Shown here one piece after another: positions 4,403 to 31,232 of a stretch of DNA of 64,000 nt. The position numbers and the translations under genes are program-made. Within the stretch, counting starts at the first letter, position 1. Every line of letters starts with the position of its first letter. Source of the stretch: Shewanella pealeana ATCC 700345. GTDB lineage: Bacteria > Pseudomonadota > Gammaproteobacteria > Enterobacterales > Shewanellaceae. The stretch lies in NCBI RefSeq assembly GCF_000018285.1, contig NC_009901.1, positions 2,603,001 to 2,667,000 of the forward strand. Direction: 5' to 3'. The notes under the pieces are model-generated. The model saw only the letters and a list, made by a program, of their open reading frames with translations, ran no database searches and was not told the origin of the DNA.

Positions 4403-5305
4403 ATGGACATTAAAGCACTCGGCTATTTCGTTGCACAAACTGATGATCTCGCACAATGGCAGCAATATGCTGAAAATGTATTAGGCATGATGGTCACATC
4501 AGCCCCTGGCGGCGGTCTTTACTTAAAAATGGATGACCGACCTTACCGCATGCTAATTGTTGAGGGCAGTGATAAGCGTTATCTAGCGTCAGGATGGGAG
4601 CTTGCTTCACAAGCCGCTTTTAACACTGCGATTGAATCTTTAAACGCAAAAGAGGTGAGCTGGGAAGAAGGTAACGCTGCCGAATGCTTGCAGCGTGGTG
4701 TGCAGCAACTTGCAATAGTCATTGACCCCGCGGGCAATAGACACGAATTGTATTGGGGGCATAAATCTGATTGCCAACCGTTTATTTCACCTCAAGGTGT
4801 ACCAGCCTTCCTTACGGGTGATATGGGATTAGGTCATACGGTTTTGCCAGCGCCTAATTTCGATGAGACATACGCATTTATGACAGATGTCCTAGGTTTT
4901 GGCTTATCCGATATATTCAATTTCAAACCCTCGCCAGACGCCGAGCCCATTCGTATTCATTTTATGCACTGCAATAACCCTAGACACCATAGCTTGGCTA
5001 TTTGTGAGTTTCCATCGCCAGTAGGCTGCGTGCATGTCATGGTTGAAGTGGAGTCAATGACAGAAGTGGGCCGCGCCCATGATAGGCATCAAAATCACGG
5101 TGTTGCGCTATCAGCCACTTTGGGTCAGCACCTCAACGACAAAATGACCTCTTTTTACATGAAAACACCATCTCAGTTTGATCTTGAGTTTGGTTGCGGC
5201 GGTTTGCAAGTTGATTGGCAGGACCATTGCGCCTTTGAGTTTACTCGAGTGAGCATTTGGGGCCACGATTTTTCAGTTGGACAAAATCAACAAGGAGCCG
5301 AGTAG
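4403..5305 (+). CDS. hsaC: extradiol ring-cleavage dioxygenase (HsaC/TesB type)
   Basis: This type I extradiol dioxygenase should cleave the catechol formed from the aromatised steroid A ring (3,4-DHSA), giving DSHA. It is built of two vicinal-oxygen-chelate domains. Numbered from the chosen start, the Fe(II) ligands appear to be H145 (LGHTVL), H211 (CVHVMVEV) and E262 (DLEFGCGG), with the active-site histidines at 195-196 (NPRHHSLA). The 300-residue length matches the family. ATG 4403 is preferred over the in-frame ATG 60 bases upstream because it has an AAAAGGAGA site and the N-terminus then begins like HsaC (IKALGYF). ipdA begins at the next base. The hydroxylase (HsaAB) and hydrolase (HsaD) that flank this step are not in the window. 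Confidence 0.88.
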   Translation: MDIKALGYFVAQTDDLAQWQQYAENVLGMMVTSAPGGGLYLKMDDRPYRMLIVEGSDKRYLASGWELASQAAFNTAIESLNAKEVSWEEGNAAECLQRGVQQLAIVIDPAGNRHELYWGHKSDCQPFISPQGVPAFLTGDMGLGHTVLPAPNFDETYAFMTDVLGFGLSDIFNFKPSPDAEPIRIHFMHCNNPRHHSLAICEFPSPVGCVHVMVEVESMTEVGRAHDRHQNHGVALSATLGQHLNDKMTSFYMKTPSQFDLEFGCGGLQVDWQDHCAFEFTRVSIWGHDFSVGQNQQGAE

Positions 5306-6181
5306 ATGAATAAATTACAAACCGTAAAGCAAATGGTCGAACAGCTCGAAGACGGCATGACTATCGGTATCGGTGGTTGGGGACCAAGACGAAAGCCGAT
5401 GGCGCTAATTCGCGAGATCCTTCGCTCAGACTTAAAAGATCTCACCATTGTTGCCTATGGCGGTGCAGACGTTGGCATGCTTTGCGCTGCCAATAAAGTA
5501 AAGAAAGTTATCTTCGCATTTGTATCTCTTGATTTTATTCCCCTCGAGCCCTTTTTCAGAAAGGCTCGTCAAAATGGTGACATCGACATCATGGAAATTG
5601 ATGAGGGAATGATGTTGCTCGGCTTACGGGCTGCAGCATGGGGTTGCCCATTTATACCGACTCAAGTCGGCTTAGGTACCGATGTCGTTAAGGTTAATCC
5701 GGACTTAAAAGTCATTGATAGCCCCTATGACGATAAAGAGTGGGTAGCCATGCCAGCATTGAAGCTCGACGCGGCACTGATCCATGTCGATAGAGCCGAT
5801 GTTCGCGGTGTGTGTCAAATCACTGGACCCGATCACTATATGGATGATTGGTTTGTTAGAGCGGCTAAAAAAGCCTTGGTGACCTGCGATGAACTTGTGG
5901 GATCTGAAGTATTTAACGACCCTAATGCAGCACGCTGTGTTTTTTGGGAGCGTAGCCTAACAACCGCAGTCGCCCATGTCCCCGCGGGTGCTCATCCAAC
6001 CTCTTGCGCGCCTTTTTACGGTTTTGATACCGCCCATTTTAAAGAATACAACGCTTGTGCGCGTGACGGTGGTTTTGAACTGTATTTCGATAAATATGTA
6101 AAAGATAAGTGTGAAAATGATTATCAAGCGTTAGTCGGCGGGGTAGACACCATAAAACAATTAGCCTTACCGGTTTACTAA
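5306..6181 (+). CDS. ipdA: CoA-transferase-family ring C hydrolase, alpha subunit IpdA
   Basis: This is the alpha subunit of the heterodimeric IpdAB enzyme, which hydrolytically opens the last steroid ring (COCHEA-CoA) late in HIP breakdown. It has the class I CoA-transferase fold. GIGGWGPRRKPM (21-32), YGGADVGMLC (51-60) and the acidic IDEGMM segment (98-103) match what I remember of mycobacterial IpdA closely, and 291 residues is the expected size. The start directly abuts the hsaC stop, with AAGGAG upstream. It is followed by ipdB, with ipdC and echA20 further on, as in other steroid degraders. A glutaconate-type CoA transferase is the broader alternative, but the neighbourhood makes IpdA very likely. 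Confidence 0.9.
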   Translation: MNKLQTVKQMVEQLEDGMTIGIGGWGPRRKPMALIREILRSDLKDLTIVAYGGADVGMLCAANKVKKVIFAFVSLDFIPLEPFFRKARQNGDIDIMEIDEGMMLLGLRAAAWGCPFIPTQVGLGTDVVKVNPDLKVIDSPYDDKEWVAMPALKLDAALIHVDRADVRGVCQITGPDHYMDDWFVRAAKKALVTCDELVGSEVFNDPNAARCVFWERSLTTAVAHVPAGAHPTSCAPFYGFDTAHFKEYNACARDGGFELYFDKYVKDKCENDYQALVGGVDTIKQLALPVY

Positions 6182-6255
6182 ACATATCAACGACAGCAGC
6201 GCCTTGAATACATTGCGAGGCGGTCAAATTTTGCAGCAAGGAAAAGGATAACACG

Positions 6256-7086
6256 ATGACTATAGCGAAAGAGTACAGCTTAGCAGAGCTGATGATATGC
6301 GCCGCTGCAGAGGCATTTCGCCATGATGGTGAGGTACTTGCAACCGGTATTGGGCTAATTCCTCGCCTTGGTGCTAGTTTAGCCATGAAAACTTTTAACA
6401 GCGATCTGATGATGACAGACTCAGAAGCTTATTTGTTGTCAGAGCCAAATCCGGTAGGGCCAAGAGCTGATAATTACATTCAGCAAAATGAAACATGGAT
6501 GGGTTTTTCACGGATTTTTGATAATGTTTGGAGCCGTAAGCGCCATGCGATGGTAGGCCCGACTCAAATTGACCAATTTGGTCAGGCAAACATTTCAGCA
6601 TTAGGCAGTGACTATAGTAAGCCAAAGGTGCAAATGCTTGGCGTAAGGGGCTTTCCTGGCAACTCAATTAGCCACCCTAATTCGTTCTTTGTACCAAGCC
6701 ACAATACTCGTGTTTTCGTAAAAGGTGAGTGCGATATGGTGGCATCGATTGGTTATAACCCTGAACGGTTGCCAAAAGGCTACCGACTCGATGATATCGA
6801 TATACGCCTAGTGATAACCGATCTATGCGTGATGGACTTTAACGGCCCGGATCACCAATTACGTTTAGTGAGTCTGCATCCCGGGGTCGCGCTTAATACG
6901 GTTATTGAAAATACAGGGTTTGCAATAGACATTGCGCAAAATGTAAAGACAACACCGCCGCCAACCGTTGAGCAACTCGCTATTATTGCCGCGTTAGATC
7001 CGCATAACTTAAGAGCAAAACAACTTAAAGACAATCCTCCTGGTGATAGAACCACTAGCGCCAAACTCGTAGAAGAGGTGGCCTAA
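6256..7086 (+). CDS. ipdB: CoA-transferase-family ring C hydrolase, beta subunit IpdB
   Basis: This is the partner subunit of IpdA in the COCHEA-CoA hydrolase. The protein has 276 residues with the CoA-transferase beta fold. A GIGLIPRLGASLA stretch lies near residue 30, VGPTQIDQFGQAN near 95-107, and GVRGFPGNSISHP near 125. A 74-base gap from ipdA contains no gene; an AAGGAAAAGGAT ribosome site precedes the ATG. Its stop overlaps the next start by one base (TAATG), so translation is probably coupled. Pairing with ipdA is the main reason for the name; the fold alone would only say CoA transferase. Confidence 0.88.
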   Translation: MTIAKEYSLAELMICAAAEAFRHDGEVLATGIGLIPRLGASLAMKTFNSDLMMTDSEAYLLSEPNPVGPRADNYIQQNETWMGFSRIFDNVWSRKRHAMVGPTQIDQFGQANISALGSDYSKPKVQMLGVRGFPGNSISHPNSFFVPSHNTRVFVKGECDMVASIGYNPERLPKGYRLDDIDIRLVITDLCVMDFNGPDHQLRLVSLHPGVALNTVIENTGFAIDIAQNVKTTPPPTVEQLAIIAALDPHNLRAKQLKDNPPGDRTTSAKLVEEVA

Positions 7087-8042
7087 TGTCTAACAATACA
7101 GCTCACAGTGAAGCGGCCCCGCAAACTACGGATAACCAACTAGCCGCGCTTGATGTAAGTCAGCGCGAAGATATTGATGGCGTCGTGTTTTATGAGGTGC
7201 GGGAACAAGTTGCAATTGTAACCATGAATCGCCCCGAATATAACAATGCACAAAATTCGAAAATGACCTACGCGCTCGACGCCGCTTTTAAACGAGCGTG
7301 CGACGACGACAAGGTAAAAGTGATCATACTCGCCGGTGAAGGTAAGCACTTTTCAGCCGGACATGACATCGGCACCCCCGGACGCGACGTTGACCAAGAG
7401 TTTGATCGTGCCAGTCTTTGGTACGATCACAGCAATAAAAGCGGCGGTGAGTTTTTATATGCGAGAGAGCAAGAGGTTTACTTAGGTATGTGTCGTCGCT
7501 GGCGTGATATGCCGAAGCCGACCATTGCTATGGTACAAGGCGCCTGTATCGCTGGCGGGCTAATGCTAGCCTGGGTATGTGACCTAATTATCTGTTCTGA
7601 TGATGCCTATTACTGCGACCCAGTTGTTCGAATGGGGATCCCAGGCGTTGAATATTTTGCGCACGTGCATGAGCTTAACTCTCGCATTGCAAAAGAGTTT
7701 TTATTCTTAGGCGACAAAATGAATGCTCAGCGTGCTTATGAGTTAGGCATGGTGAACCGAATTTTTTCGAGGAAAGATCTCACTAGCGAGACGTTAACCA
7801 TAGCTAATAAAATCGCCCAAATGCCACGACTTGGTTTGCAACTAACTAAGCAAGCGATTAATAACGCAGAAGATTTGATGGGCAAACGTAGCACTATGGA
7901 TATGGTTTTTGGCTTACATCATTTTGCTCATGTTCATAATGAGTCAATATCCGGAGACAAACTCGGTGGCTTTGATGCAAAAGCGATGGCAAAAGCCAAC
8001 AAGGCTGCCAGCGGTGCAGAGAAGTGCAAGGAGACATCATGA
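7086..8042 (+). CDS. enoyl-CoA hydratase/isomerase-family protein, atypical active site
   Basis: This is a crotonase-fold protein of 318 residues with a non-conserved N-terminal stretch of about 35 residues before the fold starts. The oxyanion-hole segments are present (HFSAGHDIG near 95; ACIAGGLML near 155). The two glutamates that activate water in ordinary hydratases appear replaced: the GGCEL-type position reads GGLML and the QPE-type position reads CDPVV. It may therefore be a hydrolase, an isomerase or another specialised crotonase in the ring C/D pathway rather than a simple hydratase. It is coupled to ipdB by TAATG and overlaps ipdC by four bases. Related genes occur beside ipdABC in other steroid degraders, to my recollection. 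Family firm, reaction unknown. Confidence 0.8.
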   Translation: MSNNTAHSEAAPQTTDNQLAALDVSQREDIDGVVFYEVREQVAIVTMNRPEYNNAQNSKMTYALDAAFKRACDDDKVKVIILAGEGKHFSAGHDIGTPGRDVDQEFDRASLWYDHSNKSGGEFLYAREQEVYLGMCRRWRDMPKPTIAMVQGACIAGGLMLAWVCDLIICSDDAYYCDPVVRMGIPGVEYFAHVHELNSRIAKEFLFLGDKMNAQRAYELGMVNRIFSRKDLTSETLTIANKIAQMPRLGLQLTKQAINNAEDLMGKRSTMDMVFGLHHFAHVHNESISGDKLGGFDAKAMAKANKAASGAEKCKETS

Positions 8043-9193
8043 GCCATGCCGTTGATGCTACAAATCCTGTTGATCCAGTGTATGAGCTTAAAACCGATTT
8101 AACTGAAATGCTGGGTTGCCGCTATCCCATTGTCCAAACCGCAATGGGTTGGGTGTCAGACGCAAACTTGGTGATTGCAACCACAAAAGCGGGCGGATTT
8201 GGATTCTTAGCCGGTGCGACAATAGAGGCTTCTGAGCTAGAAAATGAAATTCTCAAGGTTATTACTGCCACTGGGAATAGTCATTTTGGTCTCAATTTTC
8301 ATATGTTCCAAGAGAATGCCAAAGAGTGTGTTGATCTCGCGATCAAGTACTCCCTTAGAGCCGTTAGTTATGGCCGAGGCCCAGATAAACAAACCATCTC
8401 GCGGCTAAAAGCAGCAAAAGTGTTATGTATCCCTACCGTTGGCGCACTGAAACATGCGTTAAAAGCGCAAGCGCTAGGGGCTGACATCATCACGATTCAA
8501 GGTGGAGAAGGTGGTGGCCATACTGGCGGTGTGCCTTCAAGCATACTCTTACCCCAAGTACTCGATGCGGTATCGATTCCAGTAATTGCGGCAGGTGGAT
8601 TCTCAACCGGACGTGGTTTAGCTGCAGCTTTAGCTTCTGGAGCATGCGGTATAGCAATGGGGACTCGTTTTTTAATGACCTCTGACTCACCCACACCGGC
8701 ACATACGCTCAATAAGTATTTGGAAGTTAACGACACCCAAGCTATTAAAGTGACAACAGCTGTAGATGGTATGCGCCATAGAATGATTAATTCTCCATTT
8801 ATTGCGCGCCTTGAAAAAGCCAGCCCATTTGGGCGTCTACGGATCGCACTAGCAAGTGCATGGTACTGGAAAAATGAAACCGGAATGACATTTGCCCACA
8901 TGGTCAAAGTGTTTATCGAATCGGTGAAAACTGAGCCTGGGGCCGTGTCTCAAGTTGTTATGTCCGCAAATCAGCCAGTGTTATTACAGCGTTCAATGGT
9001 CGATGGCCAACCCAATGAAGGCATTCTGCCAAGTGGTCAAGTTGCAGCCTCAATTAATGAACTTATCAGTGTCGATCAGCTAGTAACCGATATCGTAAAA
9101 CAAGCACATCAATGCTTAAGCCAACTTCAGGCTCGAACATTAATTACCGAGACACCAATCAATAAAAATCACTCTACAAAGGAGGCTAGCTAA
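8039..9193 (+). CDS. ipdC: nitronate monooxygenase-family flavoenzyme IpdC
   Basis: This FMN-dependent TIM-barrel protein of the 2-nitropropane dioxygenase family matches IpdC, which dehydrogenates the HIP-derived CoA thioester before ring D opening. Motifs include PIVQTAMGWV near the N-terminus, IQGGEGGGHTGG in the middle, and AAGGFSTGRG followed by GIAMGTRFLMTSDS for phosphate binding. The start chosen is the ATG at 8039 (AAGGAG upstream, ATGA overlap with the previous stop) rather than the GTG at 8024. It is about 384 residues, a little longer than the mycobacterial enzyme because of both termini. Position between ipdB and echA20 supports the call. Confidence 0.88.
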   Translation: MSHAVDATNPVDPVYELKTDLTEMLGCRYPIVQTAMGWVSDANLVIATTKAGGFGFLAGATIEASELENEILKVITATGNSHFGLNFHMFQENAKECVDLAIKYSLRAVSYGRGPDKQTISRLKAAKVLCIPTVGALKHALKAQALGADIITIQGGEGGGHTGGVPSSILLPQVLDAVSIPVIAAGGFSTGRGLAAALASGACGIAMGTRFLMTSDSPTPAHTLNKYLEVNDTQAIKVTTAVDGMRHRMINSPFIARLEKASPFGRLRIALASAWYWKNETGMTFAHMVKVFIESVKTEPGAVSQVVMSANQPVLLQRSMVDGQPNEGILPSGQVAASINELISVDQLVTDIVKQAHQCLSQLQARTLITETPINKNHSTKEAS

Positions 9194-9195
9194 TT

Positions 9196-9981
9196 ATGGC
9201 CAATGCATCGGTTAACCCTATTTCGCTGCCTAAATCAGCATTTATTACAGAGCTAAAAAATGGCGTCGCGGAGTTGGTGATCAACAAACCGCCAGTCAAT
9301 GCCTTAGATAGCCATGAATGGTTCGCCTTAGCTCATGAGATTGAACGACTCAACGCGGATCTAGCCGTTAGAGTGATTGTTATTCGTGCTGAAGGTCGAG
9401 GCTTTTGTGCCGGCGTTGACATTAAAGAACTGGATCAGTACCCAGAACGCATTGTTGCCGTAAATGCCGGTAATTATGCGACGTTTAAAGCCATTCATCG
9501 GGCAACAGTGCCGGTAATTGTCGCCGTTCATGGATTTGTACTGGGCGGTGGAATTGGTATCACAGGTGCTGCAGATATTGTAGTTGCATCCGATTGTGCC
9601 ACATTTGCACTACCAGAGGTGGATCGCGGCGCAATGGGCGGTGGAGCCCATTTACAAAGATTGTTCCCGGTACAGAAAGTACGCTACATGTTTTTTACTG
9701 GTGACACTATCACGGCACCAGATGCAGAGCGCTATGGCTTTATTGAGCGCATCGTTACTAAGCAAGAGCTGCGTAAAACGGCGTTAGCTATTGCCACTAA
9801 AATCGCGGCGAAAAGTCCTGAAATGATCCGTATTGCCAAAGAAGCCTTAAATGGTATTGAAGATGGCAATCTCGAAGACAAATACCGCTGGGAGCAAGGT
9901 TTCACACTGCAGGCCTATACCTCTCCAGACTCAGCTGAAACTCGTAAGGCGTTTATCGAAAAGCGTGAAGCGAGCTTTTAG
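9196..9981 (+). CDS. echA20: crotonase-family ring D hydrolase EchA20
   Basis: This 261-residue crotonase matches EchA20, which opens steroid ring D by hydrolysis in the HIP pathway. GRGFCAGVDIKELDQ is almost diagnostic. GFVLGGGIGITG (oxyanion hole), ALPEVDRGAMGGG (retained Glu) and the C-terminal KEALNGIED segment agree with the remembered mycobacterial protein. The start lies two bases after the ipdC stop, with AAAGGAGG upstream. It sits directly after ipdC, as expected for sequential reactions. Confidence 0.88.
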   Translation: MANASVNPISLPKSAFITELKNGVAELVINKPPVNALDSHEWFALAHEIERLNADLAVRVIVIRAEGRGFCAGVDIKELDQYPERIVAVNAGNYATFKAIHRATVPVIVAVHGFVLGGGIGITGAADIVVASDCATFALPEVDRGAMGGGAHLQRLFPVQKVRYMFFTGDTITAPDAERYGFIERIVTKQELRKTALAIATKIAAKSPEMIRIAKEALNGIEDGNLEDKYRWEQGFTLQAYTSPDSAETRKAFIEKREASF

Positions 9982-10010
9982 TTTTAACCCTTTACCATTC
10001 GAGGCAGCTT

Positions 10011-11168
10011 ATGAATTTAACATATACAAAACAACAACAAGCGTTTCGGTTAGAAGTACGCCAATGGTTAGCGGATAACTTACCGGAACAAAAATTAGCA
10101 AGTTACGATACCCGAGAAGGATTTGAGCAACATAGGGTGTGGGAAGGCAAATTATTTGATGCACGTTTATCCATGGTTATGTGGCCAGAAGAGCTTGGCG
10201 GTCGCGGTTGTGATCTTATTGAATGGTTGATCTTTGAAGAAGAATATTATGCTGCTGATGCGCCAATGCGGGTTAACCAAAATGGTCAGTTACTACTCGG
10301 GTCAACATTAATCGAATTTGGTACCGATGAGCAGAAAAAGCAATTTTTACCCCCTATGGCCGCGAGCCAACATATGTGGGCTCAAGCGTGGTCAGAGCCT
10401 AATGCCGGCTCTGATATGGCCGCAATTACCAGTAAAGCGATACGAGAAGGCGACCATTATGTGATCAACGGTCAAAAGACTTGGTCCACAAGAGCGAGTT
10501 TTGCCGATTGGTGTTTTGGCTTGTTCCGCAGCGATCCTACTTCGAGTCGCCATCATGGCTTGTCGTATCTAATGGTGCCACTCGACGCAGAAGGGGTGAC
10601 CATTAGGCCGATAAAAGCCCTTAACGGAAAAGATGCTTTTGCAGAGATCTTTTTTGATAACGTTAAAGTTCCTGTGGTTAATCGGGTGGGGGATGAAGGC
10701 GTTGGTTGGCGGGTTGCGATGGCGACGGCAGGGTTTGAGCGAGGATTGTTACTGCGCTCTCCGGCACGTTTTCAGCAGACGGCTCGCAAATTAGTCGAGC
10801 TGTATAAAGCCAATCAACAAACTGCTGATAATGATCCGAGTATTCGCAATCAGGTCAGTGAATATTGGTCGGCCGCCGAGGCTTATGCATTGTCTGCATA
10901 CAATACCGTTGGCCGGCTAAATCAAGGTGACAAGATTGGCGCCGAGTCGAGCATCAACAAGATTTTTTGGTCAGAGTTAGATTTGAAGATGCACGAAACC
11001 GCTATGCGGATTTTGGGTTCTCGCGCCGAGTTACTCGACAATGATGCACAAGAAGCATATTGGCTCGATGGCTTTTTATTTGCGCAAGCGGGTCCTATCT
11101 ATGCGGGATCTAACGAAATTCAACGCAATATTATTGCGGAACGCATGCTTGGCCTGCCACGCGCCTAG
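10011..11168 (+). CDS. fadE31: acyl-CoA dehydrogenase, FadE31 type
   Basis: This FAD-dependent acyl-CoA dehydrogenase subunit has 385 residues. It shows WAQAWSEPNAGSD at 123-135, the INGQKTWSTRA flavin segment, and the C-terminal GSNEIQRNIIAERMLGL signature. SYDTREGFEQHR near residues 31-42 and the SEPNAGSD context resemble FadE31 of the KstR2 regulon rather than FadE30 (which is at 30042). Steroid ACADs often act as alpha2beta2 heterotetramers, and the next gene is a second, shorter ACAD nine bases away, so the two probably form one enzyme. The substrate is presumably a CoA ester formed after IpdAB ring opening. A GAGG ribosome site precedes the ATG. Confidence 0.83.
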   Translation: MNLTYTKQQQAFRLEVRQWLADNLPEQKLASYDTREGFEQHRVWEGKLFDARLSMVMWPEELGGRGCDLIEWLIFEEEYYAADAPMRVNQNGQLLLGSTLIEFGTDEQKKQFLPPMAASQHMWAQAWSEPNAGSDMAAITSKAIREGDHYVINGQKTWSTRASFADWCFGLFRSDPTSSRHHGLSYLMVPLDAEGVTIRPIKALNGKDAFAEIFFDNVKVPVVNRVGDEGVGWRVAMATAGFERGLLLRSPARFQQTARKLVELYKANQQTADNDPSIRNQVSEYWSAAEAYALSAYNTVGRLNQGDKIGAESSINKIFWSELDLKMHETAMRILGSRAELLDNDAQEAYWLDGFLFAQAGPIYAGSNEIQRNIIAERMLGLPRA

Positions 11169-11176
11169 GGGGAATT

Positions 11177-12253
11177 ATGGACTTTACATTCACAGAAGAT
11201 GAACTCGCATTTCGAGAAGCCATCAGTCGATTTTTAATGACCGAAGCGGCTCCTGAGGCGTTGAGAGAGATTTGGGAGACTGATACGGGACGCTCACCTG
11301 AATTGCGCAATAAAATTGCCGAGCAAGGCTTAACGGCACTATCTATTCCAGAAGAAGATGGCGGCTTAGGACTTGGTGACGTTGCTTGGTCTTTAATGAC
11401 CCAAGAGCTGGGTTATTACGGGATCCCCGATAGCTTAGCTGATACTGCATATCTTGCTGCAGGCGTGCTAACAGCGCGGCCGCAAACTGACAATCTAGAA
11501 CGCAATCAACAGATTAAGCAATGGTTAACTGCAATCGGCGAAGGCAGTATTCGTGTTGCTGTCGGCCATCCAGTTAATCCGCTAGTGGCTGACGCTGCAG
11601 TAGCTGATCTGTTAATCCTGCTCGATGGTGATGATGTACATGCCGTTACACGTAAAGATATTGATGTAGTGCTGCGCCCAAGTATCGATTCATCAAGACG
11701 GCTTGCTAAAGTCAGTTGGCAACCAAGTCGCGATAGCTTGCTTGCTTCAGGTGAAGTAGGCAAAGCGATTCAACAGCAAATATTAAACCGCGGCGCTTTG
11801 TCAGCGGCTGGGCAGTTGTTAGGTTTAGCGCAAAGAATGCTAGATCTGTCTATTGATTATGTTGCACAGCGTAAGCAATTTGGCCGTGTAATCGGTAGTT
11901 TTCAAGCCGTTAAACACCACTTGGCAGATGTGGCATCAAAAATAGAGATGGCAAAACCCGTGCTATACCGCGCTGCAAAGGAGTTTGATGACGAAAGTGT
12001 CGACTCTTCTGTGTATATTTCTCAAGCCAAGATTTTTTGCGCTGAAGCAGCACACTTGGCGGCAAAAAACGGTATTCAAGTCCATGGTGCAATGGGATAC
12101 ACCTGGGAAGTCGATTTGCAGATGTTTATGAAACGGACCTGGGTTTTAGAGTCGACTTGGGGCGATGTGAGCTTTCATAAAGCCAGAGTCAATGAGTTTG
12201 TGTTTGACGCAAATAACAAAATTGGTCCAGGCCAAACCTTTGGGAGAACATAA
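11177..12253 (+). CDS. fadE32: acyl-CoA dehydrogenase, FadE32-like partner subunit
   Basis: This is an acyl-CoA dehydrogenase of 358 residues. It has the N-terminal helical domain (SIPEEDGGLGLGDVAW near 55-70), an RKQFGRVIGSFQAVKHHLAD segment, and a C-terminal HGAMGYTWEVDLQ motif. It is shorter in the middle beta domain than its neighbour, as is common for the companion subunit of steroid ACAD heterotetramers. GGGGA precedes the ATG. The stop overlaps fadA6 by one base. The pairing with the FadE31-type gene suggests a FadE31/FadE32 complex; the exact paralogue name is less certain than the family. Confidence 0.75.
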   Translation: MDFTFTEDELAFREAISRFLMTEAAPEALREIWETDTGRSPELRNKIAEQGLTALSIPEEDGGLGLGDVAWSLMTQELGYYGIPDSLADTAYLAAGVLTARPQTDNLERNQQIKQWLTAIGEGSIRVAVGHPVNPLVADAAVADLLILLDGDDVHAVTRKDIDVVLRPSIDSSRRLAKVSWQPSRDSLLASGEVGKAIQQQILNRGALSAAGQLLGLAQRMLDLSIDYVAQRKQFGRVIGSFQAVKHHLADVASKIEMAKPVLYRAAKEFDDESVDSSVYISQAKIFCAEAAHLAAKNGIQVHGAMGYTWEVDLQMFMKRTWVLESTWGDVSFHKARVNEFVFDANNKIGPGQTFGRT

Positions 12254-13407: not shown

Positions 13408-13462
13408 GCGACTTGAGCCAATACAAAAACAATAAAAGTTAGTGCAATTGAGGGAGCATAGA

Positions 13463-14341: not shown

Positions 14342-14411
14342 GGATTTTAGCTAAAAGCCTTTAGCTGAATTGAGACAATTGACCACGATAATGGATTAGC
14401 ACCGAGGACAA

Positions 14412-23719: not shown

Positions 23720-24925
23720 ATGACAGAAGCAGTGATCGTCTCCGTTGCACGTACCGCATTAAGCAAATCTTTTCGTGGCGCATTTAATGATACTGAAGCC
23801 CCGGTTCTTGGTGGCCATGTTGTCAAGTCTGTCGTTGAGCGTGCTGGTATTGACCCTAAGTCTATCGATGATGTGATTATGGGCGCAGCAGCCCAGCAGG
23901 GGACCCAATCCTACAACATTGGCAGACTCTCAGCTTATACCGCTGGCCTACCCGATACCGTATCAGGCATGGCACTAGACCGTATGTGCGCATCGGGTTT
24001 AATGAGTATTGGTGTTGCAGCAAAATCGATTATGACTGACGAGATGAGCACCGTTGTTGCCGGTGGCGTTGAGTCGTTATCGTTAACCCAAAATAAATAT
24101 AAGAATACTTATCGAGCACAGTCTCAAGCGGCAATTGCTGCAATGCCTAGTGCTTACATTCAAATGATCGAAACTGCCGAAATTGTCGCAGAGCGCTACG
24201 GCATCAGTCGTCAGGCTCAAGATGAATACTCGCTGCTAAGTCAGCAACGCACCGCTAGCGCCCAGCAAGCGGGTTACTTTAATGATGAAATTGTACCGAT
24301 TACTGTTCAGCAACTGACCTTTGATGAAAACCGCCAACCAGCAGGCCATAAAGAAACGATTGCGTTACAAGACGATTGTAATAGACCGCAAACAACGCTA
24401 GACAGTTTGTCTAATCTTGCTCCTGTTTGGAAAGGTGGCGAGTGGACTGGCGAAGGCCGCAATGTTACCGCGGGCAATGCATCACAGTTTGCCGATGGCG
24501 CAGCGGCAAGTTTATTAATGAGTAAAACCCAAGCAGCAAGCCTTGGTATTGCCCCCTTAGGAACTTACAAAGGTATTGCCGTAGCAGGTTGTGCCCCAGA
24601 AGAGATGGGAATAGGTCCGGTGCTCGCTATCCCCAAACTGTTAAAGCGTTTTGGTCTGACCATTGATGATATAGGTCTGTGGGAGATCAATGAAGCCTTT
24701 GCAAGCCAAGTTGTTTATTGCCAACACAAGTTAGAGATCCCCGCCGATAGATTAAATGTAAATGGCGGCGCTATTTCTATTGGGCACCCATTTGGTATGT
24801 CTGGCGCTCGTATGGTGGGTCATGCACTGATTGAAGGCAGGCGTCGAGGCGTTAAATACGTTGTTGTAGCAATGTGTATTGGCGGTGGTATGGGCGCAGC
24901 AGGACTCTTTGAAGTCAATCAGTAA
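23720..24925 (+). CDS. acetyl-CoA acetyltransferase/thiolase
   Basis: This 401-residue degradative thiolase has nucleophile C90 (LDRMCASGL), the GHPFGMSG histidine motif near 355, and C386 in MCIGGGMG. It is complete and of normal length. It differs from the FadA6-type enzyme at 12253 in the motif around each catalytic residue and is closer to general beta-oxidation thiolases. It could carry out another thiolysis step, for example in side-chain shortening or late C-ring products. It lies 12 bases after the MaoC gene with AAAGGAATT upstream. Confidence 0.85.
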
Positions 24926-24939: not shown

Positions 24940-25788
24940 ATGTCAGTAATTTTAGAAAAAGCACAGAAACTATTCTTGTCAGACAATGACGCAAATGTAC
25001 TCACAGGCCATCAATTTGAAACGGTTAATTATTTAGTCAAAGACAAAATAGGCATTATCGAGCTAAATCGACCCAATAAAATGAATGCTTTCAATCAAAC
25101 CATGCGCAGCGAGCTGCAGGCTGCGATAGAAATGGCAGACAATAATGACGATTTAAGAGTGATTATGATCCGTGGTGCTGGTGATCACTTCTCTTCGGGC
25201 GCGGACTTGAAAGAGCTTGTTGGTGCCAAGCACGGTATAGAGGCACAGATCCTTAATGAATATAAGCCATTTTTATCACGTATTGCCCAGTCAAAAAAGA
25301 TTTATATGGCAGTTGTACAAGGCGCCGCAGCAGGGATAGGCGGTTCGTTAGCCTTAAATTGTGACTTAGTCGTTATGGCTGAAAGCGCCTGCCTTTTTCA
25401 GGCTTTTGCCGCTATTGGATTAGTGCCTGATGGAGGCGCAAGCTGGCATTTAGTCAATAAACTGGGCTACAAGAAAGCGTTCGAACTTTGCGTCGAGGCC
25501 GACAAGCTCACGGCGCTGGAGTGTCTGAGCAGCGGCTTGGTCAATCGTATTTCTGATGATGCAAGTGTGCAAGGTGATGCACTTGTTTGGGCACAAAAAT
25601 TGGCCACCGGAGCACCACTATCACAGCAGTACTTAAAGCGATTATTGCAACAAGCTCAGCGAGGGAGCTTACACGACACCATTCGCCAAGAGGCGCTGTA
25701 TCAGCAGTTCTGCTTCAACAGTGACGATTTTAAAGAAGGTGTGAATGCCTTTTTTGAAAAACGCGATGCAACCTTTACTGGTAAGTAG
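24940..25788 (+). CDS. enoyl-CoA hydratase/isomerase family, PaaG-like
   Basis: This crotonase-fold protein of 282 residues has an N-terminal extension of about 35 residues. HFSSGADLKEL and QGAAAGIGGSLAL form the oxyanion hole. The hydratase glutamates are not at their usual places; instead GLVPDGGASWHL carries an aspartate as in PaaG and delta3,delta2-enoyl-CoA isomerases. A double-bond isomerase is therefore more likely than a hydratase. AAGGAG precedes the ATG, 14 bases after the thiolase. Substrate unknown. Confidence 0.8.
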   Translation: MSVILEKAQKLFLSDNDANVLTGHQFETVNYLVKDKIGIIELNRPNKMNAFNQTMRSELQAAIEMADNNDDLRVIMIRGAGDHFSSGADLKELVGAKHGIEAQILNEYKPFLSRIAQSKKIYMAVVQGAAAGIGGSLALNCDLVVMAESACLFQAFAAIGLVPDGGASWHLVNKLGYKKAFELCVEADKLTALECLSSGLVNRISDDASVQGDALVWAQKLATGAPLSQQYLKRLLQQAQRGSLHDTIRQEALYQQFCFNSDDFKEGVNAFFEKRDATFTGK

Positions 25789-25852
25789 CTGATATTAACC
25801 CGAATTAAAGCAATAGATCAGATTATTAAGAACGTTATTAATGGGAGACGTC

Positions 25853-27499
25853 ATGCGCGAAGTCATGGATTTTGATGTTGTGATTGTAGGAGCTGGGCCT
25901 TCAGGGCTATCCGCCGCTTGCAGGCTCATGCAGCTGAGTAAACAGGAAAACCAACAAATTTCTGTTTGTGTTGTGGAGAAAGGTTCAGAGGTTGGGGCAC
26001 ATATCCTATCTGGCGCCATTATCGAACCTCGAGCAATCGATGAGTTGTTTCCCGATTGGCGGACTCTAGGGGCACCATTAACAACCAGCGTGACAGAAGA
26101 TAGATTACTTTTTTTGTCTGATAATAAAAAATCAATCACCTTGCCCCAAGTCGCTGTTCCAAAGCCGTTACATAATCAGGGAAACTATATTGCAAGTTTA
26201 GGTAATGTTTGCCGTTGGTTGGCTGAACAAGCTGAAGCGTTAGGAGTCGAGATATTTCCTGGATTCGCTGCGGCAGAAGTCCTATACCATGAGGATGGCT
26301 CAGTAAAAGGCATTGCAACCGGAGACATGGGGGTCAGTAAAGATGGTCAACCGAACTCTCAATACATGCAAGGCATGGAGCTGCATGCAAAATTTACCTT
26401 ATTCGGTGAAGGGTGCCGTGGTCATTTAGGAAAAGAACTGATCCACAAGTTTGGCTTAGCCGATGAAAGTGATGCACAGCATTATGGGCTGGGAATGAAA
26501 GAGATCTGGGACATTAATCCTGAGCTGCATCGTCCTGGACTGGTTGTGCATGGTTTTGGCTGGCCACTTGATAAAAATGCTGGCGGTGGTTTTTTCCTAT
26601 ACCACACCGATAATCATCAGCTAGTTGTAGGCTTAATTGTCGATCTCAATTACAGCAATACTCATTTAAGTCCTTTTGATGAATTTCAGCGCTTAAAGCA
26701 TCACCCACAATTGGCACAATATCTAAAAGGTGGGTCACGGGTGTCGTATGGAGCAAGGGCTATAGCTAAAGGGGGACTCAATGCGTTACCTGTAATGAGT
26801 TTTGCTGGAGGCATGCTGCTAGGTTGTAATGCTGGCACATTAAATGTGGCAAAAATTAAAGGTACCCATACCGCAATGAAGTCGGGGATGTTATGTGCTG
26901 AAACCGTATTTGACCTGCTCAATAACGACGTAACATCAGGCTCCACTGACGCAGTGTTCGAAGCTAAATTTAAACAGTCTTGGCTTTATGAGGAGCTACA
27001 TAGCAGCCGAAATTTTGGGCCCGCATTACACAAATACGGTACGCTCGCTGGCGGTGGCTTTAACTATATTGATCAGAATTGGTTTGGCGGAAAGTTACCC
27101 TTGTCGCTACGAGATAATATTGAAGACCATGCTTGCCTCCTCCCCAGCAGTGAGTCAAAACCCATTACTTACCCCAAACCTGATGGAATCTTAAGTTTTG
27201 ATAAGTTGACCTCGGTATTTCTGTCCAATACCAATCACGAAGAAGATCAGCCTTGCCATTTATCACTACTCGATCATTCCGTGCCTTCTAAACACAACAT
27301 CCCAATTTTTGATGAACCAGCAGCACGCTATTGTCCTGCTGGGGTATACGAGGTAGTTGACAACGGCGGAGGCAATGCACTGCAAATCAATGCGCAGAAT
27401 TGTTTGCATTGTAAAACCTGCGACATAAAAGATCCGTCACAAAATATCAGATGGACAGTGCCAGAAGGCGGTGGCGGGCCGAGCTATCCCAACATGTAA
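25853..27499 (+). CDS. electron transfer flavoprotein:ubiquinone oxidoreductase
   Basis: ETF-QO accepts electrons from reduced ETF, hence from the acyl-CoA dehydrogenases, and passes them to quinone at the inner membrane. The FAD-binding VIVGAGPSGLSAACRL motif is near the N-terminus. Near the C-terminus four cysteines (CPAGVYE, then CLHCKTCDIKDP) bind a 4Fe-4S cluster. About 548 residues is full length. The ATG at 25853 fits the GGGAG site better than the in-frame ATG at 25841. An ETF-QO inside the catabolic block probably serves its dehydrogenases directly; ETF subunits are not in the window. Confidence 0.9.
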   Translation: MREVMDFDVVIVGAGPSGLSAACRLMQLSKQENQQISVCVVEKGSEVGAHILSGAIIEPRAIDELFPDWRTLGAPLTTSVTEDRLLFLSDNKKSITLPQVAVPKPLHNQGNYIASLGNVCRWLAEQAEALGVEIFPGFAAAEVLYHEDGSVKGIATGDMGVSKDGQPNSQYMQGMELHAKFTLFGEGCRGHLGKELIHKFGLADESDAQHYGLGMKEIWDINPELHRPGLVVHGFGWPLDKNAGGGFFLYHTDNHQLVVGLIVDLNYSNTHLSPFDEFQRLKHHPQLAQYLKGGSRVSYGARAIAKGGLNALPVMSFAGGMLLGCNAGTLNVAKIKGTHTAMKSGMLCAETVFDLLNNDVTSGSTDAVFEAKFKQSWLYEELHSSRNFGPALHKYGTLAGGGFNYIDQNWFGGKLPLSLRDNIEDHACLLPSSESKPITYPKPDGILSFDKLTSVFLSNTNHEEDQPCHLSLLDHSVPSKHNIPIFDEPAARYCPAGVYEVVDNGGGNALQINAQNCLHCKTCDIKDPSQNIRWTVPEGGGGPSYPNM

Positions 27500-27609: not shown

Positions 27610-28374
27610 ATGAGCGGACGTTTAATTGGAAAGGTTGCCTTAATTACCGGGGCAGCCCGAGGTGTTGGTTTAGCAACTGCGAGATTAATGGCAAGGGAAG
27701 GAGCCCAAGTTGTTCTCACCGATATAAATGCTGAACAAGGGAAAGAGATAGCAAATAGTATTGGTAATAATAGCTTGTTCATAGAACATGATGTCACTAA
27801 AGAGGCTGATTGGTCTGCTGTTATCAATCATATTGAAGCTAAATTTGGCCAATTAAATATTCTGCTCAATAACGCCGCAATCTTGCAACTTGGTGACATC
27901 AAAGAAGAAACGTTGGCAGGATGGCAGAGAGTGCACATGGTTAATTCAGACAGTGTTTTTCTTAGGATCCACTATGCTTTGCCGCTAATGGAAAAAAGTG
28001 GCGGTGGTTCAATTATCAATATGTCCTCTTCATCAGCCGTTTTCGGTATGCCACATTTTGCAGCCTATGGTGCGAGTAAAGCCGCTATTCGTGGACTGTC
28101 TCAAAGTGTTGCGGTTTATTGTTCGCAGACCAAAAATAACGTTAGGTGCAACACCTTGCATCCGGATTCAATTATGACACCTATGGTTATGGAGATAAGT
28201 GCACAAGCAGGTGATCGCAGCTTAGCAGATCCTGATCGTGCTAAGGCTTATGTATGCCGTCCTGAAGACGTCGCTAATAGTGTTTTATTTCTAGCGTCCG
28301 ATGAATCAAAACATATTAATGGTGCCGCTATTGCGCTAGACGGTGGGGCGACAGTAACTCCTCCTTATATTTAA
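27610..28374 (+). CDS. 3beta/17beta-hydroxysteroid dehydrogenase-like SDR
   Basis: This SDR of 254 residues is NAD-binding, with GAARGVG (14-20), NNAA and the catalytic S140, Y153, K157. Its resemblance to the Comamonas 3beta/17beta-hydroxysteroid dehydrogenase, as I remember it, is clear in EHDVTKEADWSAV (59-71), GQLNILLNNAAIL (80-92) and TLHPDSIMTPM. It should oxidise a 3beta- or 17beta-hydroxyl to the ketone. The next gene is a ketosteroid isomerase, which acts on the 3-keto product, so a 3beta role fits best. GGAGAG precedes the ATG. Confidence 0.78.
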   Translation: MSGRLIGKVALITGAARGVGLATARLMAREGAQVVLTDINAEQGKEIANSIGNNSLFIEHDVTKEADWSAVINHIEAKFGQLNILLNNAAILQLGDIKEETLAGWQRVHMVNSDSVFLRIHYALPLMEKSGGGSIINMSSSSAVFGMPHFAAYGASKAAIRGLSQSVAVYCSQTKNNVRCNTLHPDSIMTPMVMEISAQAGDRSLADPDRAKAYVCRPEDVANSVLFLASDESKHINGAAIALDGGATVTPPYI

Positions 28375-28412
28375 TTTTGCTCGCTTTGGTTCATTAATAA
28401 ATGGAGATTATT

Positions 28413-28784
28413 ATGATATCTGAACAATTTGGTCTAGGAGTCGTTTCTAGCTATATAGAGTTTTTAAATACCGGTAACTTTGAAGGTATTGCCTCACTTT
28501 ATAGTAAAAATGCAATCGTAGAAGACCCAATTGGTAGCGATAAAATTGTAGGTAGAACGGCAATACGTGATTTCTATCGTCAAGCGGTTTTGGGCGTTCA
28601 TCAAGTAAACCAACTCGGTCAGGTTCGTGTCGCTAATAATGAAATAGCCTTTCCTTTCGAAGTGATTTTAGCAAACGATCCTACGCTTACTATTTCAGTT
28701 ATTGATACCTTCAAGCTCAATGACGAAGGTGAAATTGACACCATGCGTGCATTTTGGGGGCCGGGAAATGTCACTTCGCTCTAG
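28413..28784 (+). CDS. ksi: steroid delta5-isomerase (ketosteroid isomerase)
   Basis: This 123-residue cone-fold enzyme moves the C5-C6 double bond of 3-keto-delta5 steroids to C4-C5. Counted from ATG 28413, Y14, D38 (VEDP) and D98 (SVIDTF) fall where the catalytic Tyr14, Asp38 and Asp99 of Comamonas KSI lie. The segments GRTAIRDFYRQ and MRAFWGPGN are also family hallmarks. GGAG six bases upstream supports this start over the in-frame ATG at 28401. Together with the preceding HSD-like SDR it is direct evidence for a steroid substrate. Confidence 0.9.
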   Translation: MISEQFGLGVVSSYIEFLNTGNFEGIASLYSKNAIVEDPIGSDKIVGRTAIRDFYRQAVLGVHQVNQLGQVRVANNEIAFPFEVILANDPTLTISVIDTFKLNDEGEIDTMRAFWGPGNVTSL

Positions 28785-28836: not shown

Positions 28837-30042
28837 ATGGATTTTACCTTCACTGAAGAGCAACAAATGATCCGAGATACCGCGGAAGCTTTTCTCGTTG
28901 AAATATCAACCAGCGCCCAAGTACGCTCTGCAATGGAAACTGCAACGGGATATGACAAAGCCGTTTGGAACCGAGTGTGTGAGCAGATGTTTTGGCAGGG
29001 CGTTACCGTTCCTGAAAGTTACGCTGGTTTAGGCCTTGGTTATGTTGAGCTGGTTGCGCTATTAGAAAAAATGGGAGAGCGGCTGTTTTGTTCACCGTTT
29101 TATTCTACGATTGCATTGGCTGCAAATGCATTATTGATTGCTGGTAATGAGCAGCAAAAAAACCGCTATTTTGAAGATATTCTAGCGGGCGCTACCGCAA
29201 CTCTTGCCTATACAGGAGCAAATGGTAGATGGGATGCGAAAGCGGTAGAAGCGCTGTGTGTCAGAGAGAATGGTCAATATAAATTAAATGGATGCTATCG
29301 ATACGTTGTTGACGGTCATAGCGCTAATTTTTTAATTGTTGCAGCAAGAACCATCGGCAGTGTCGGTGAAGAAGGAATAAGTTTGTTTGTTGTGGATGGC
29401 TCTGCTAATGGTGTGCAGCGCAATTGGCTCCCAACGATGGATCAAACCCGTAAACAGGCACAGGTTGTGTTTGAAAACGTTATTGTTGATCCGGGGGCGT
29501 TACTTGGCGAGTTTGAGCAAGGGTGGCAGAATCTATCGGTCATTATTGATTTAGCCACTATTGCTATTGCGGCCGATCAAGTTGGAGGCGCACAAGTAGC
29601 ATTAGATCAAAGCGTTGAGTACACCAAACAACGAGTTCAGTTTGGAAGAACTATTGCGTCTTTTCAGGCTATAAAACACAAAGCAGCCGATATGATGCTT
29701 AAAGCTGAGGCTGCGCGGTCGTCTATATATTATGCAGCATGCGTTGCCGACCAATTTCTAAATTATCACCGTCAAGATACTGATGGCGCGCCTTGTCACA
29801 CTAAAAATCCATTCCGCAGAGAGTTAACCGAAGTTGCGAGTATCGCAAAAGCCTATTGCAGTGATGCATATTTTTTTAACGCTGGTTGCGGGATCCAACT
29901 ACACGGTGGCGTTGGCTTTACCCAAGAGTATGATATTCAACTTTATTTTAAACGAGCCAAATCCACAGAAACGTATTTAGGTAACGGTGCCTATCACCGC
30001 GAGCGTTTAGCTAATCTTATTCTCCAGCCTGGAGCTTTATAA
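28837..30042 (+). CDS. acyl-CoA dehydrogenase, partner subunit of FadE30-type gene
   Basis: This is an acyl-CoA dehydrogenase of 401 residues. Visible are VPESYAGLGLGYVELV near 67, RVQFGRTIASFQAIKHKAADM near 265-285, and HGGVGFTQEYDIQLYFKRAK near 362. The usual SEPxAGSD stretch of the beta domain is missing (it reads YTGANGRWD), so substrate or FAD contacts differ, as in the companion subunits of heteromeric steroid ACADs. AAAGGATACG precedes the ATG. The stop overlaps the next start by one base. Probably forms a complex with the FadE30-type protein; it could also be the FadE33-like subunit. Confidence 0.78.
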   Translation: MDFTFTEEQQMIRDTAEAFLVEISTSAQVRSAMETATGYDKAVWNRVCEQMFWQGVTVPESYAGLGLGYVELVALLEKMGERLFCSPFYSTIALAANALLIAGNEQQKNRYFEDILAGATATLAYTGANGRWDAKAVEALCVRENGQYKLNGCYRYVVDGHSANFLIVAARTIGSVGEEGISLFVVDGSANGVQRNWLPTMDQTRKQAQVVFENVIVDPGALLGEFEQGWQNLSVIIDLATIAIAADQVGGAQVALDQSVEYTKQRVQFGRTIASFQAIKHKAADMMLKAEAARSSIYYAACVADQFLNYHRQDTDGAPCHTKNPFRRELTEVASIAKAYCSDAYFFNAGCGIQLHGGVGFTQEYDIQLYFKRAKSTETYLGNGAYHRERLANLILQPGAL

Positions 30043-31232
30043 TGAAACTCGATTTTGATAATGCAGATGAATGCTTTCGTCGCGATGTGAGTCAATGGCT
30101 TAGTGATAATTTAAGCGGTGAATTTGAATGTATTCGTGGCCGAGGTGGTCCTGGCGACGAGCATATGTTTATTGAAGAGCGTAAGGCTTGGGAGCGAAAA
30201 CTATATCAAGGTGGCTGGACATGCATTGGCTGGCCAAAAGAGTACGGAGGAAAGGCGGCCAGCATAGTGCAGCAAGTTATTTTTAACGAAGAATACGCAA
30301 GGGCTGGAGGCCCAGGCAGAATAGGCCATATAGGTGAAACTCTAATTGGGCCAACATTAATAGCCTATGGCAGTGAGCAACAAAAACGCCGTTATCTTGC
30401 GGGTATTTTAACCGGCACCGAATTTTGGTGTCAGGGGTACTCTGAACCCAATGCTGGTTCTGACTTAGCTAACGTACATACCAAAGCTAAGTTTGATGAT
30501 GAAACGGGCCAATGGTTAATAAGCGGCCAGAAGGTGTGGACATCGTTAGCCCACGAATCCCATTATTGTTTCGTTGTCGCTAGAACCGATCCAAAGTCTG
30601 TTGGCCAAAAAGGCTTGGGTTTCTTTTTAGTTAACATGGAGCAGCCTGAGGTCGATGTTAGACCCATAGCTCAAATGACATCAACCAGTGAATTCAATGA
30701 AGTTTTTTTTGATGATGCAGTATGTAGCAGCGATGATTTGGTTGGTCAATGTGGCGATGGTTGGACAATTGCGATGAGTCTACTTGGATTTGAGCGTGGA
30801 ATTTCAACTCTGGGTCAACAGATGCTTTTCACTAACGAGTTCAACGATATAGTTAATGCAGCAAGAGCCAATGGGTCCGCTGATGATCCGATAATAAGGC
30901 AAAGAATTAGTGATGCGTATATTGGCTTAAAAATAATGCGCTATAACAGTATGCGTATGCTGTCAGATTCCAATGTTGACGGCGATTTATCTAAAGAGGC
31001 TATGTGCTATAAGCTTTACTGGGCGAGCTGGCACCGTAACTTAGGTAAACTTGCTATGGATGTACTTGGACCGGAGGCTGAAATTTTACTCGACAGCCCC
31101 TATCAACTGACTCAGCTACAATCTATGTACCTTTTTTCTCGTTCAGATACCATCTATGGTGGGACCAATCAAATCCAGCGCAATATTATTGCCGAGCGTG
31201 CTCTTGGAATGCCAAAAGAACCTAGAGGTTAA
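30042..31232 (+). CDS. fadE30: acyl-CoA dehydrogenase, FadE30 type
   Basis: This acyl-CoA dehydrogenase of 396 residues matches FadE30, which introduces the first double bond into the HIP-CoA propionyl side chain. RRDVSQWLSDNLSGEF near the N-terminus, RGRGGPGDEH, CQGYSEPNAGSDLANV, SGQKVWTSLAHES, EFNEVFFDD and YGGTNQIQRNIIAERALG follow the remembered FadE30 sequence closely. It is coupled to the previous ACAD by TAATG. It is the last gene of the catabolic locus and is followed by a bidirectional terminator. Confidence 0.85.
   Translation: MKLDFDNADECFRRDVSQWLSDNLSGEFECIRGRGGPGDEHMFIEERKAWERKLYQGGWTCIGWPKEYGGKAASIVQQVIFNEEYARAGGPGRIGHIGETLIGPTLIAYGSEQQKRRYLAGILTGTEFWCQGYSEPNAGSDLANVHTKAKFDDETGQWLISGQKVWTSLAHESHYCFVVARTDPKSVGQKGLGFFLVNMEQPEVDVRPIAQMTSTSEFNEVFFDDAVCSSDDLVGQCGDGWTIAMSLLGFERGISTLGQQMLFTNEFNDIVNAARANGSADDPIIRQRISDAYIGLKIMRYNSMRMLSDSNVDGDLSKEAMCYKLYWASWHRNLGKLAMDVLGPEAEILLDSPYQLTQLQSMYLFSRSDTIYGGTNQIQRNIIAERALGMPKEPRG

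Follow-up and report, generated by a model that had tools for sequence, protein, structure and literature searches.

A 76-kb tRNA-linked island predicted to encode aerobic bile-acid and steroid degradation in Shewanella pealeana ATCC 700345, with relatives on Vibrio plasmids

Genes for opening the steroid rings C and D occur in two blocks in a 64,000-nucleotide stretch (bases 2,603,001-2,667,000, hereafter the window) of the closed 5,174,581-bp genome of the squid-associated bacterium Shewanella pealeana ATCC 700345, which raises the question of whether they form a steroid-degradation locus, how far such a locus would extend and how it reached this genome. An earlier note, made from the letters of the window, had taken the interval 4,403-31,232 for a near-complete ring C/D locus of the HIP pathway, HIP being a two-ring acid. 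Homology and gene order make us highly confident that the region forms the right-hand portion of a 76-kb island for aerobic bile-acid and steroid degradation (genome 2,558,294-2,634,232, window about -44,700 to 31,232); as the window covers only this right part, the locus is bigger than had been noted. That the strain has such a locus is already known, since a prediction of steroid catabolism for Shewanella, with cholate side-chain degradation for S. pealeana ATCC 700345, was published by Bergstrand et al. (2016), who also tested this strain (PMC4810484). The pathway itself is the established one, and its steps are predicted here from homology and gene order. What we add is the tRNA-linked placement of the 76 kb, its patchy spread, its relatives on Vibrio plasmids and a putative separable module for substrate range.

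All the genes named in the earlier note proved to be intact open reading frames (ORFs) at or inside the positions given there, as judged by translation and by comparison with NCBIfam, Pfam and PDB (Table 1). In block 1 (4,403-16,007) the order is hsaC, ipdA, ipdB, scdN, ipdC, echA20, two acyl-CoA dehydrogenase genes, fadA6, a short-chain dehydrogenase/reductase (SDR) gene and an amidase gene, with neighbours spaced by -19 to 74 bases. HsaC matched PDB entry 2zi8 with 244.9 bits; the entry is labelled 'probable biphenyl-2,3-diol 1,2-dioxygenase BphC', and we take it to be HsaC of Mycobacterium tuberculosis. Because this match starts at residue 21 of the long ORF, the start at 4403 is better than that at 4343. 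His145, His215 and Glu266, presumably the iron ligands, are kept in the alignment with 2zi8. IpdA and IpdB were nearest to 6con/6co6 and 6co6, respectively, which we assume to be IpdAB hydrolases, with 219 and 172 bits vs. 92 and 62 bits for glutaconate CoA-transferase. All 12 of 12 aligned sequences share Glu100 of IpdA, in our view the equivalent of the catalytic Glu105 of RHA1, and it faces Glu in both structures shown. In IpdB, the alignment puts Ser56 at the site that is Gly57 in RHA1 IpdB and the catalytic Glu in class I CoA-transferases, and so the protein fits a ring hydrolase better than a CoA-transferase (for the role of this site in the two enzymes, see PMC5380842).

The remaining pathway genes of the window were recognized mostly through family models. 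EchA20, FadA6, IpdF, ScdN and the SDR at 13,442 exceeded the curated cut-offs of PRK07938, PRK07801, PRK07831, PRK08290 and PRK07791, respectively, models that we take to stand for individual M. tuberculosis or Comamonas genes (for PRK07791, the SDR of Rv3548c/ScdE type). For ipdC, FabK structures added to the family match, and IpdC has been published as a FabK-like flavoprotein (PMC5380842). For EchA20 and the small dehydrogenase, the PDB matches were generic family members. Where the earlier note had spoken of FadE30/31/32-type genes, there are four acyl-CoA dehydrogenases in two pairs, to which gene order gives the putative individual names FadE30 to FadE33. The ketosteroid isomerase held at the sequence level, as this small NTF2-like protein matches the steroid delta-isomerase 1ocv and keeps Tyr18, Asp42 and Asp102, presumably the catalytic Tyr14, Asp38 and Asp99 of the Comamonas testosteroni enzyme. 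Finally, the amidase has an RRSLLKTG leader and the Lys and GGSSGGS/GGGS motifs; its family, cluster position and leader make it a candidate bile-salt amidase. We rejected the idea that it represents a new kind of part, because amidases in such clusters are already listed as bile-salt amidases (PMC8399759).

The reach of the locus beyond rings C and D became apparent on both sides of the window border. Ahead of hsaC, the product of the gene at 184..2049 is probably a steroid side-chain CoA ligase, the fused protein at 3273..4211 may be of the Shy type, and the thiolase-fold protein at 2062..3273 would be a Sal-type steroid side-chain aldolase, its place before Shy and HsaC being like that of Sal1 in Pseudomonas stutzeri Chol1. 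Further upstream, outside the window, we found a FadD3 HIP-CoA ligase (genome 2,573,960; 709.5 bits, cut-off 657), KshA (KshA_C domain, 199 bits) with a KshB-type reductase, HsaF- and HsaG-type enzymes, an HsaB-type reductase matching the hydroxyphenylacetate hydroxylase reductase model below its cut-off, and a fumarylacetoacetate-hydrolase-family protein that we take to be HsaE from its position. The HsaA-type (363.8 bits) and KstD-type (571 bits) enzymes score below the cut-offs of their models, as does the HsaD-type hydrolase, with 166.2 bits to the HsaD model vs. 168.5 bits to the BphD/biphenyl hydrolase model. The whole 9,10-seco pathway set (KshA, HsaA, HsaC, HsaD and KstD) has homologues in the genome, of which HsaA, HsaC, HsaD and KstD are to be read as homologues rather than as confirmed equivalogs. 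The same upstream part encodes a further acyl-CoA ligase, ChsH2-type and lipid-transfer proteins, acyl-CoA dehydrogenases, alpha and beta subunits of electron transfer flavoprotein (ETF), two major facilitator superfamily (MFS) transporters, MMPL and YCF48 proteins and a regulator with a weak LuxR-type helix. Altogether, family and structure matches, the ring A/B genes alongside and the gene order bear out a ring C/D (HIP) locus in Shewanella with its genes in two blocks, and the term near-complete C/D locus understated a locus that shares its island with side-chain and ring A/B genes.

The earlier note had also allowed that order, split and gene complement might differ from described clusters. 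For block 1 this was not the case. In C. testosteroni CNB-2, which has a testosterone/cholate cluster, CtCNB1_1275-1283 are colinear with window 4,403-13,407, from hsaC to fadA6 (Table 1 of PMC4810484 and of PMC5380842; ScdN from Table 1 of PMC8399759). In the bile-acid cluster of Chol1, whose contiguity we took from locus-tag numbers, C211_RS11205-11255 are colinear with the two genes before hsaC and with hsaC-fadA6, in the order Sal1-Shy1-dioxygenase-IpdA-IpdB-ScdN-ScdK-(RS11240)-ACAD-ACAD-ScdF, ACAD being acyl-CoA dehydrogenase (PMC8399759, Table 1). RS11240, at the place of EchA20, carries no assignment in that table, and the same source gives no known HIEC-CoA hydrolase for Chol1. An unusual order of block 1 was therefore discarded, as both published tables have the same order apart from this one unassigned gene. 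What does differ is the split second block and the amidase after the SDR: CNB-2 has the ScdE-type SDR, fadE33, fadE30 and ipdF as 1286-1289, soon after 1283 (fadE33 follows 1286 in PMC5380842), and Chol1 has ScdE and ScdG directly after ScdF and its amidase elsewhere in the cluster, whereas S. pealeana keeps ipdF and the FadE33/FadE30-type pair in block 2, together with ETF-ubiquinone oxidoreductase (ETF-QO), the ketosteroid isomerase and an SDR. These differences are modest. The KstR2 regulon of M. tuberculosis and Rhodococcus jostii shares counterparts of ipdA, ipdB, ipdC, ipdF, echA20, fadA6 and four FadE genes, in a different order (PMC5380842). We found no TetR-type match to NCBIfam or Pfam among the 63 non-overlapping ORFs of at least 110 aa that make up our island set (genome 2,558,294-2,634,232; 27 lie at window base 184 or beyond; all compared with NCBIfam or Pfam), and KstR homologues are described as absent from bile-acid-degrading Proteobacteria (PMC8399759).

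Read against the established pathway, the side-chain enzymes, partly in the window, and the ring A/B enzymes, mostly upstream, would convert bile acids into HIP, which FadD3 would activate. The dehydrogenase pair at 28,837-31,232, with a partner hydratase, dehydrogenase and thiolase, would then shorten the HIP side chain, IpdF and IpdC would oxidize the ring, EchA20 would open ring D and IpdAB ring C, and FadA6 with the dehydrogenase pair at 10,011-12,253 would complete beta-oxidation. Electrons would pass through ETF and the island-borne ETF-QO to ubiquinone. The genome has two ETF-QO genes (PF05187), the other at genome 5,006,135, and the presence of one in the island together with upstream genes for ETF alpha and beta suggests that the many acyl-CoA dehydrogenases have an electron path of their own. 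Between the blocks, the divergently oriented DUF1302 and DUF1329 genes stand in the gap, and the DUF1302 protein is a probable outer-membrane steroid uptake protein. The two ORFs at 16,714-18,144 lie in a stretch of 42% GC between the blocks. They had no defence or domain match in NCBIfam, Pfam or PADLOC, and no match in the cluster stretches of Shewanella halifaxensis, Shewanella corallii and the Shewanella genome G109 or in the Vibrio plasmid pVa1 described below (the S. corallii stretch first searched ended at the amidase, and the later S. corallii and G109 stretches gave none either); they probably stand outside the pathway.

Table 1. Features of the window, in window coordinates, with the evidence for each (bit scores and model cut-offs).
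Feature	Position	Strand	Evidence
acyl-CoA synthetase (PRK08279 family)	184..2049	+	729 bits, cut-off 625; syntenic in S. halifaxensis, S. corallii, G109
thiolase-fold lipid-transfer protein	2062..3273	+	587 bits to 9myr, 'Nonspecific lipid-transfer protein'
fused ChsH2-type Zn ribbon/OB fold and MaoC hydratase	3273..4211	+	PF12172, PF01796, PF01575
hsaC/tesB extradiol dioxygenase	4403..5305	+	ORF open from 4343; NF045631 291.5 bits, below 450 cut-off
ipdA/scdL1, COCHEA-CoA hydrolase alpha	5306..6181	+	best PDB match 6con/6co6 alpha subunit, 219 bits
ipdB/scdL2, COCHEA-CoA hydrolase beta	6256..7086	+	6co6_B 172 bits
scdN-type crotonase (PRK08290)	7086..8042	+	458.7 bits, cut-off 280
ipdC/scdK, FabK-like flavin-dependent 5-OH HIC-CoA reductase	8024..9193	+	FabK model 191 bits, cut-off 453; FabK structures
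echA20/scdY, ring-D-opening HIEC-CoA hydrolase	9196..9981	+	PRK07938 391.7 bits, cut-off 260
acyl-CoA dehydrogenase, FadE31 position	10011..11168	+	ACAD models; order as CNB-2 1281
acyl-CoA dehydrogenase, FadE32 position	11177..12253	+	IpdE2 model best, 137 bits, cut-off 450; order as CNB-2 1282
fadA6/scdF thiolase	12253..13407	+	PRK07801 694 bits, cut-off 591
SDR of Rv3548c/ScdE type	13442..14341	+	PRK07791 459.5 bits, cut-off 373; PF00106
amidase-signature enzyme with apparent Tat leader	14412..16007	+	PF01425 313 bits
ORF without family match	16714..17526	+	no Pfam, NCBIfam or PADLOC match
ORF without family match	17632..18144	+	no Pfam, NCBIfam or PADLOC match
DUF1302 protein	19091..20617	-	PF06980 368.6 bits
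DUF1329 partner protein	20644..22029	-	PF07044 328 bits
ipdF/scdG SDR, 5-oxo HIC-CoA oxidase	22392..23210	+	PRK07831 458.9 bits, cut-off 336
MaoC hydratase	23222..23707	+	PF01575 81 bits; syntenic relatives
3-ketoacyl-CoA thiolase	23720..24925	+	TIGR01930 415 bits, cut-off 240.55
enoyl-CoA hydratase	24940..25788	+	crotonase-family models, under equivalog cut-offs
ETF-QO	25841..27499	+	PF05187 162 bits
SDR, distal part of block 2	27610..28374	+	SDR models
ketosteroid isomerase	28401..28784	+	steroid delta-isomerase 1ocv 71.7 bits
acyl-CoA dehydrogenase, FadE33-type subunit (by order)	28837..30042	+	IpdE2 model 175 bits, below cut-off
acyl-CoA dehydrogenase, FadE30-type subunit (by order)	30042..31232	+	large-subunit ACAD model, below cut-off
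RND (resistance-nodulation-division) efflux gene, right flank, outside island	31341..34514	-	84-95% in four relatives, 0.5-7 kb from left flank

Two other accounts of what the locus does have to be set against this reading. With its steroid-like enzymes, the cluster could serve another ring compound, be it a terpenoid, a hopanoid or an aromatic (for instance biphenyl or phenylacetate): several of the proteins belong to broad families, HsaC also reaches 284.1 bits with the biphenyl dioxygenase model, and BphD is a slightly better model than HsaD for the HsaD-type protein. We regard this as extremely improbable, given that HsaC scores higher with its own model and is nearer to 2zi8 than to other dioxygenase structures, that IpdAB is nearest to 6con/6co6 and has no transferase Glu, that a KshA_C domain is encoded upstream, and that steroid metabolism of this strain is published. 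Given an additional organic substrate, S. pealeana ATCC 700345 removed cholate without detectable metabolites and transformed testosterone (PMC4810484). The latter result leaves room for a degraded locus in a strain that merely transforms steroids, as testosterone was not removed and neither steroid was the sole substrate, an account that we consider very improbable in view of the removal of cholate with no metabolites detected and of the pathway ORFs of the window, which are open and mostly closely packed. The degradation island that we favor nevertheless has points against it, which concern function here and insertion below: testosterone was only transformed, both observations were made with the additional substrate supplied and are not growth on a steroid alone, and cholesterol was not used (PMC4810484); HsaC, HsaA, HsaD, KstD and IpdE2 models all score under curated cut-offs; and the substrate of each step is a prediction, of which sequence is no proof.

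As to how the island came to be there, its borders are as follows. On the left lie an MFS gene and then tRNA-Ser(UGA) (genome 2,558,019-2,558,109), and on the right the RND gene. The distance from MFS to RND gene is 76.4 kb in S. pealeana and, as taken from match positions, about 0.5 kb in G098, 2 kb in G041, 6 kb in G107 and 7 kb in G034, four relatives that are not among the carriers of IpdA; in all four the tRNA-Ser(UGA) lies between the two genes. Thus both a tRNA boundary and a short site in relatives were observed for the island. IpdA (E up to 1e-60) occurred in 4 of 129 Shewanella species genomes. S. halifaxensis (G039) has the island at the same place, matching 60 of the 63 ORFs at 72-99% identity; the three unmatched ones are the two at window 16,714-18,144 and one at genome 2,597,670. 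In S. corallii (G020, the same as locus L010), where the cluster is spread over two contigs, block 2 lies on the other side of the tus-LysR-MFS-tRNA-Ser segment, as does the entire cluster found in G109. The 3' end of the tRNA-Ser(UGA) (genome 2558096) is repeated 106 bases downstream (2558202), and a like repeat is present in G098, which has no island. We rejected this repeat as the att pair of the island, because it occurs in G098, which lacks IpdA, and not at the right end; there was no further copy in the rest of the region.

Beyond Shewanella, we examined the best 80 of 550 confirmed IpdA loci of the genome_contigs collection, so that all counts of loci below are lower bounds (the loci are short) and say nothing of more distant carriers. 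Block 1 with a syntenic amidase was found in 9 of these 80: S. corallii, a Thalassotalea metagenome-assembled genome (MAG), four Glaciecola MAGs, Colwellia ponticola, Vibrio sinensis and Vibrio sp. PID17_43. Relatives of the gene at 28837..30042 come after sdrB in many loci, like fadE33 after 1286 in CNB-2. An IpdA-like protein is also encoded on 32 plasmid records, the closest three being Vibrio alfacsensis plasmids (75% identical). One of these, pVa1 (NZ_CP032095.1; loci L108, L109, L110, L111 and L121; 176,380 bp, typed non-mobilizable), has relatives of 55 of the 63 island ORFs at 44-87% identity, some along part of their length only; of the others, four have no match and four only a paralogue (27-35%). 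Some of the pVa1 genes are annotated in pieces, which may reflect sequencing error or decay, and the pathway on pVa1 is therefore putative. Another V. alfacsensis plasmid, pYa108, has in part the same gene order. We found no report of V. alfacsensis plasmids as steroid-degrading among the literature matches listed, the word 'steroid' is absent from the passages of PMC9345347 consulted, and Bergstrand et al. (2016) found steroid genes in none of 186 marine Vibrio genomes (PMC4810484). In a FastTree with midpoint rooting, built on a concatenation of eight proteins for 61 of 85 sources (24 were left out because one of the eight proteins was not over 80% of its length, and L010 was dropped as a duplicate of G020), 14 Alteromonadales/Vibrionales-type sequences formed one clade (local support 1.0), and Vibrio branched within Shewanella (local support 0.988 and 0.995; Vibrio clade 1.0).

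Some further features of pVa1 and the island stand beside these results. An XrtA/PEP-CTERM exopolysaccharide locus is also on pVa1. A BaiCD-like old yellow enzyme, an HsaD-type hydrolase, an SDR and a SnoaL-like protein adjoin at genome 2598332-2603118, and pVa1 has an NTF2-family protein, an SDR, an alkene reductase and an SDR side by side; as a guess, these might be the module for 12-hydroxyl removal, SteA/SteB/Hsh1/Sor1, of the review PMC8399759. A 2-thiouracil desulfurase-family gene (genome 2597670-2598146) was unmatched in the S. halifaxensis, S. corallii and G109 stretches and in pVa1.

Because of the 4 carriers among 129, the short site in four of four relatives, the plasmid relatives and the tree, we consider lateral gain of the island beside tRNA-Ser(UGA) probable, and the tRNA-side position and the near-complete relatives carried by Vibrio plasmids suggest exchange of the pathway among marine bacteria. 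Insertion itself left few traces: there was no integrase-type match in NCBIfam or Pfam among the 63 island ORFs, no terminal repeat was recognized and the two end stretches compared had no common 10-mer. GC content showed no contrast in the window (0.42-0.48 inside the island vs. 0.395-0.46 beyond). Moreover, the four carriers keep the cluster in one neighborhood, which lateral gain alone does not explain. An island that the Shewanella ancestor already had and most species then lost, without any lateral gain, would account for the cluster or block 2 lying beside the same tus-LysR-MFS-tRNA-Ser segment, on either side, in all four, and a transfer from Shewanella to Vibrio could give the same tree. 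The small number of carriers, the two different insertion points, the plasmid relatives and the well-supported place of Vibrio inside Shewanella make such an ancestral island unlikely, although it deserves more weight than the functional alternatives above.

The FadE30-type gene (30,042-31,232) suggests that the island has a separable part. An orthologue (62-92%) was found in 7 of 10 genomes or records searched, whereas pVa1, pYa108 and the draft of Vibrio sp. PID17_43 have only a 33-34% paralogue (the V. alfacsensis chromosomes lay outside this search, and the FadE30-type partner, not the FadE33-type one, served as query). Since the gene is lacking from these three Vibrio records, it appears to be a separable module. 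In S. corallii and G109 it stands away from the cluster stretches, and the G109 copy (G109:C1:2678314-2679474), about 600 kb from the cluster, has one in-frame stop. Of these 10, S. halifaxensis alone yielded the ketosteroid isomerase; the Alteromonadales/Vibrionales clusters (Glaciecola, Colwellia, Thalassotalea, Vibrio), which share block 1 and the amidase, differ from that of S. pealeana in that a search of five non-Shewanella genomes and two plasmids gave no ketosteroid isomerase (E up to 1e-10), and the FadE30-type gene was not found in one of these genomes or in either plasmid. A 37-38% relative of the isomerase occurs in 2 of the best 80 loci (L039 and L043). Chol1 does not need its HIP-CoA dehydrogenase for cholate or chenodeoxycholate, but mutants build up a HIP derivative from deoxycholate and lithocholate (PMC8399759). 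By analogy, carriers without the FadE30-type gene may be limited to 7-hydroxylated bile acids. Tentatively, as something quite possible rather than probable, we propose that Shewanella, Vibrio and Alteromonadales of the sea exchange a complete bile-acid pathway as one modular unit, which S. pealeana and S. halifaxensis would carry as a 76-kb insertion at tRNA-Ser(UGA) and V. alfacsensis on plasmids, with the pair at 28,837-31,232 as an optional part.

If this is true, carriers that lack the pair (the two Vibrio plasmids, PID17_43 and perhaps G109) would use cholate-like 7-hydroxylated acids and stall on 7-deoxy steroids, and the module would give a simple genetic test of substrate range. The borders, the short site and the plasmid relatives in fish-associated Vibrio would help to explain why bile-acid degradation is patchy among marine bacteria.

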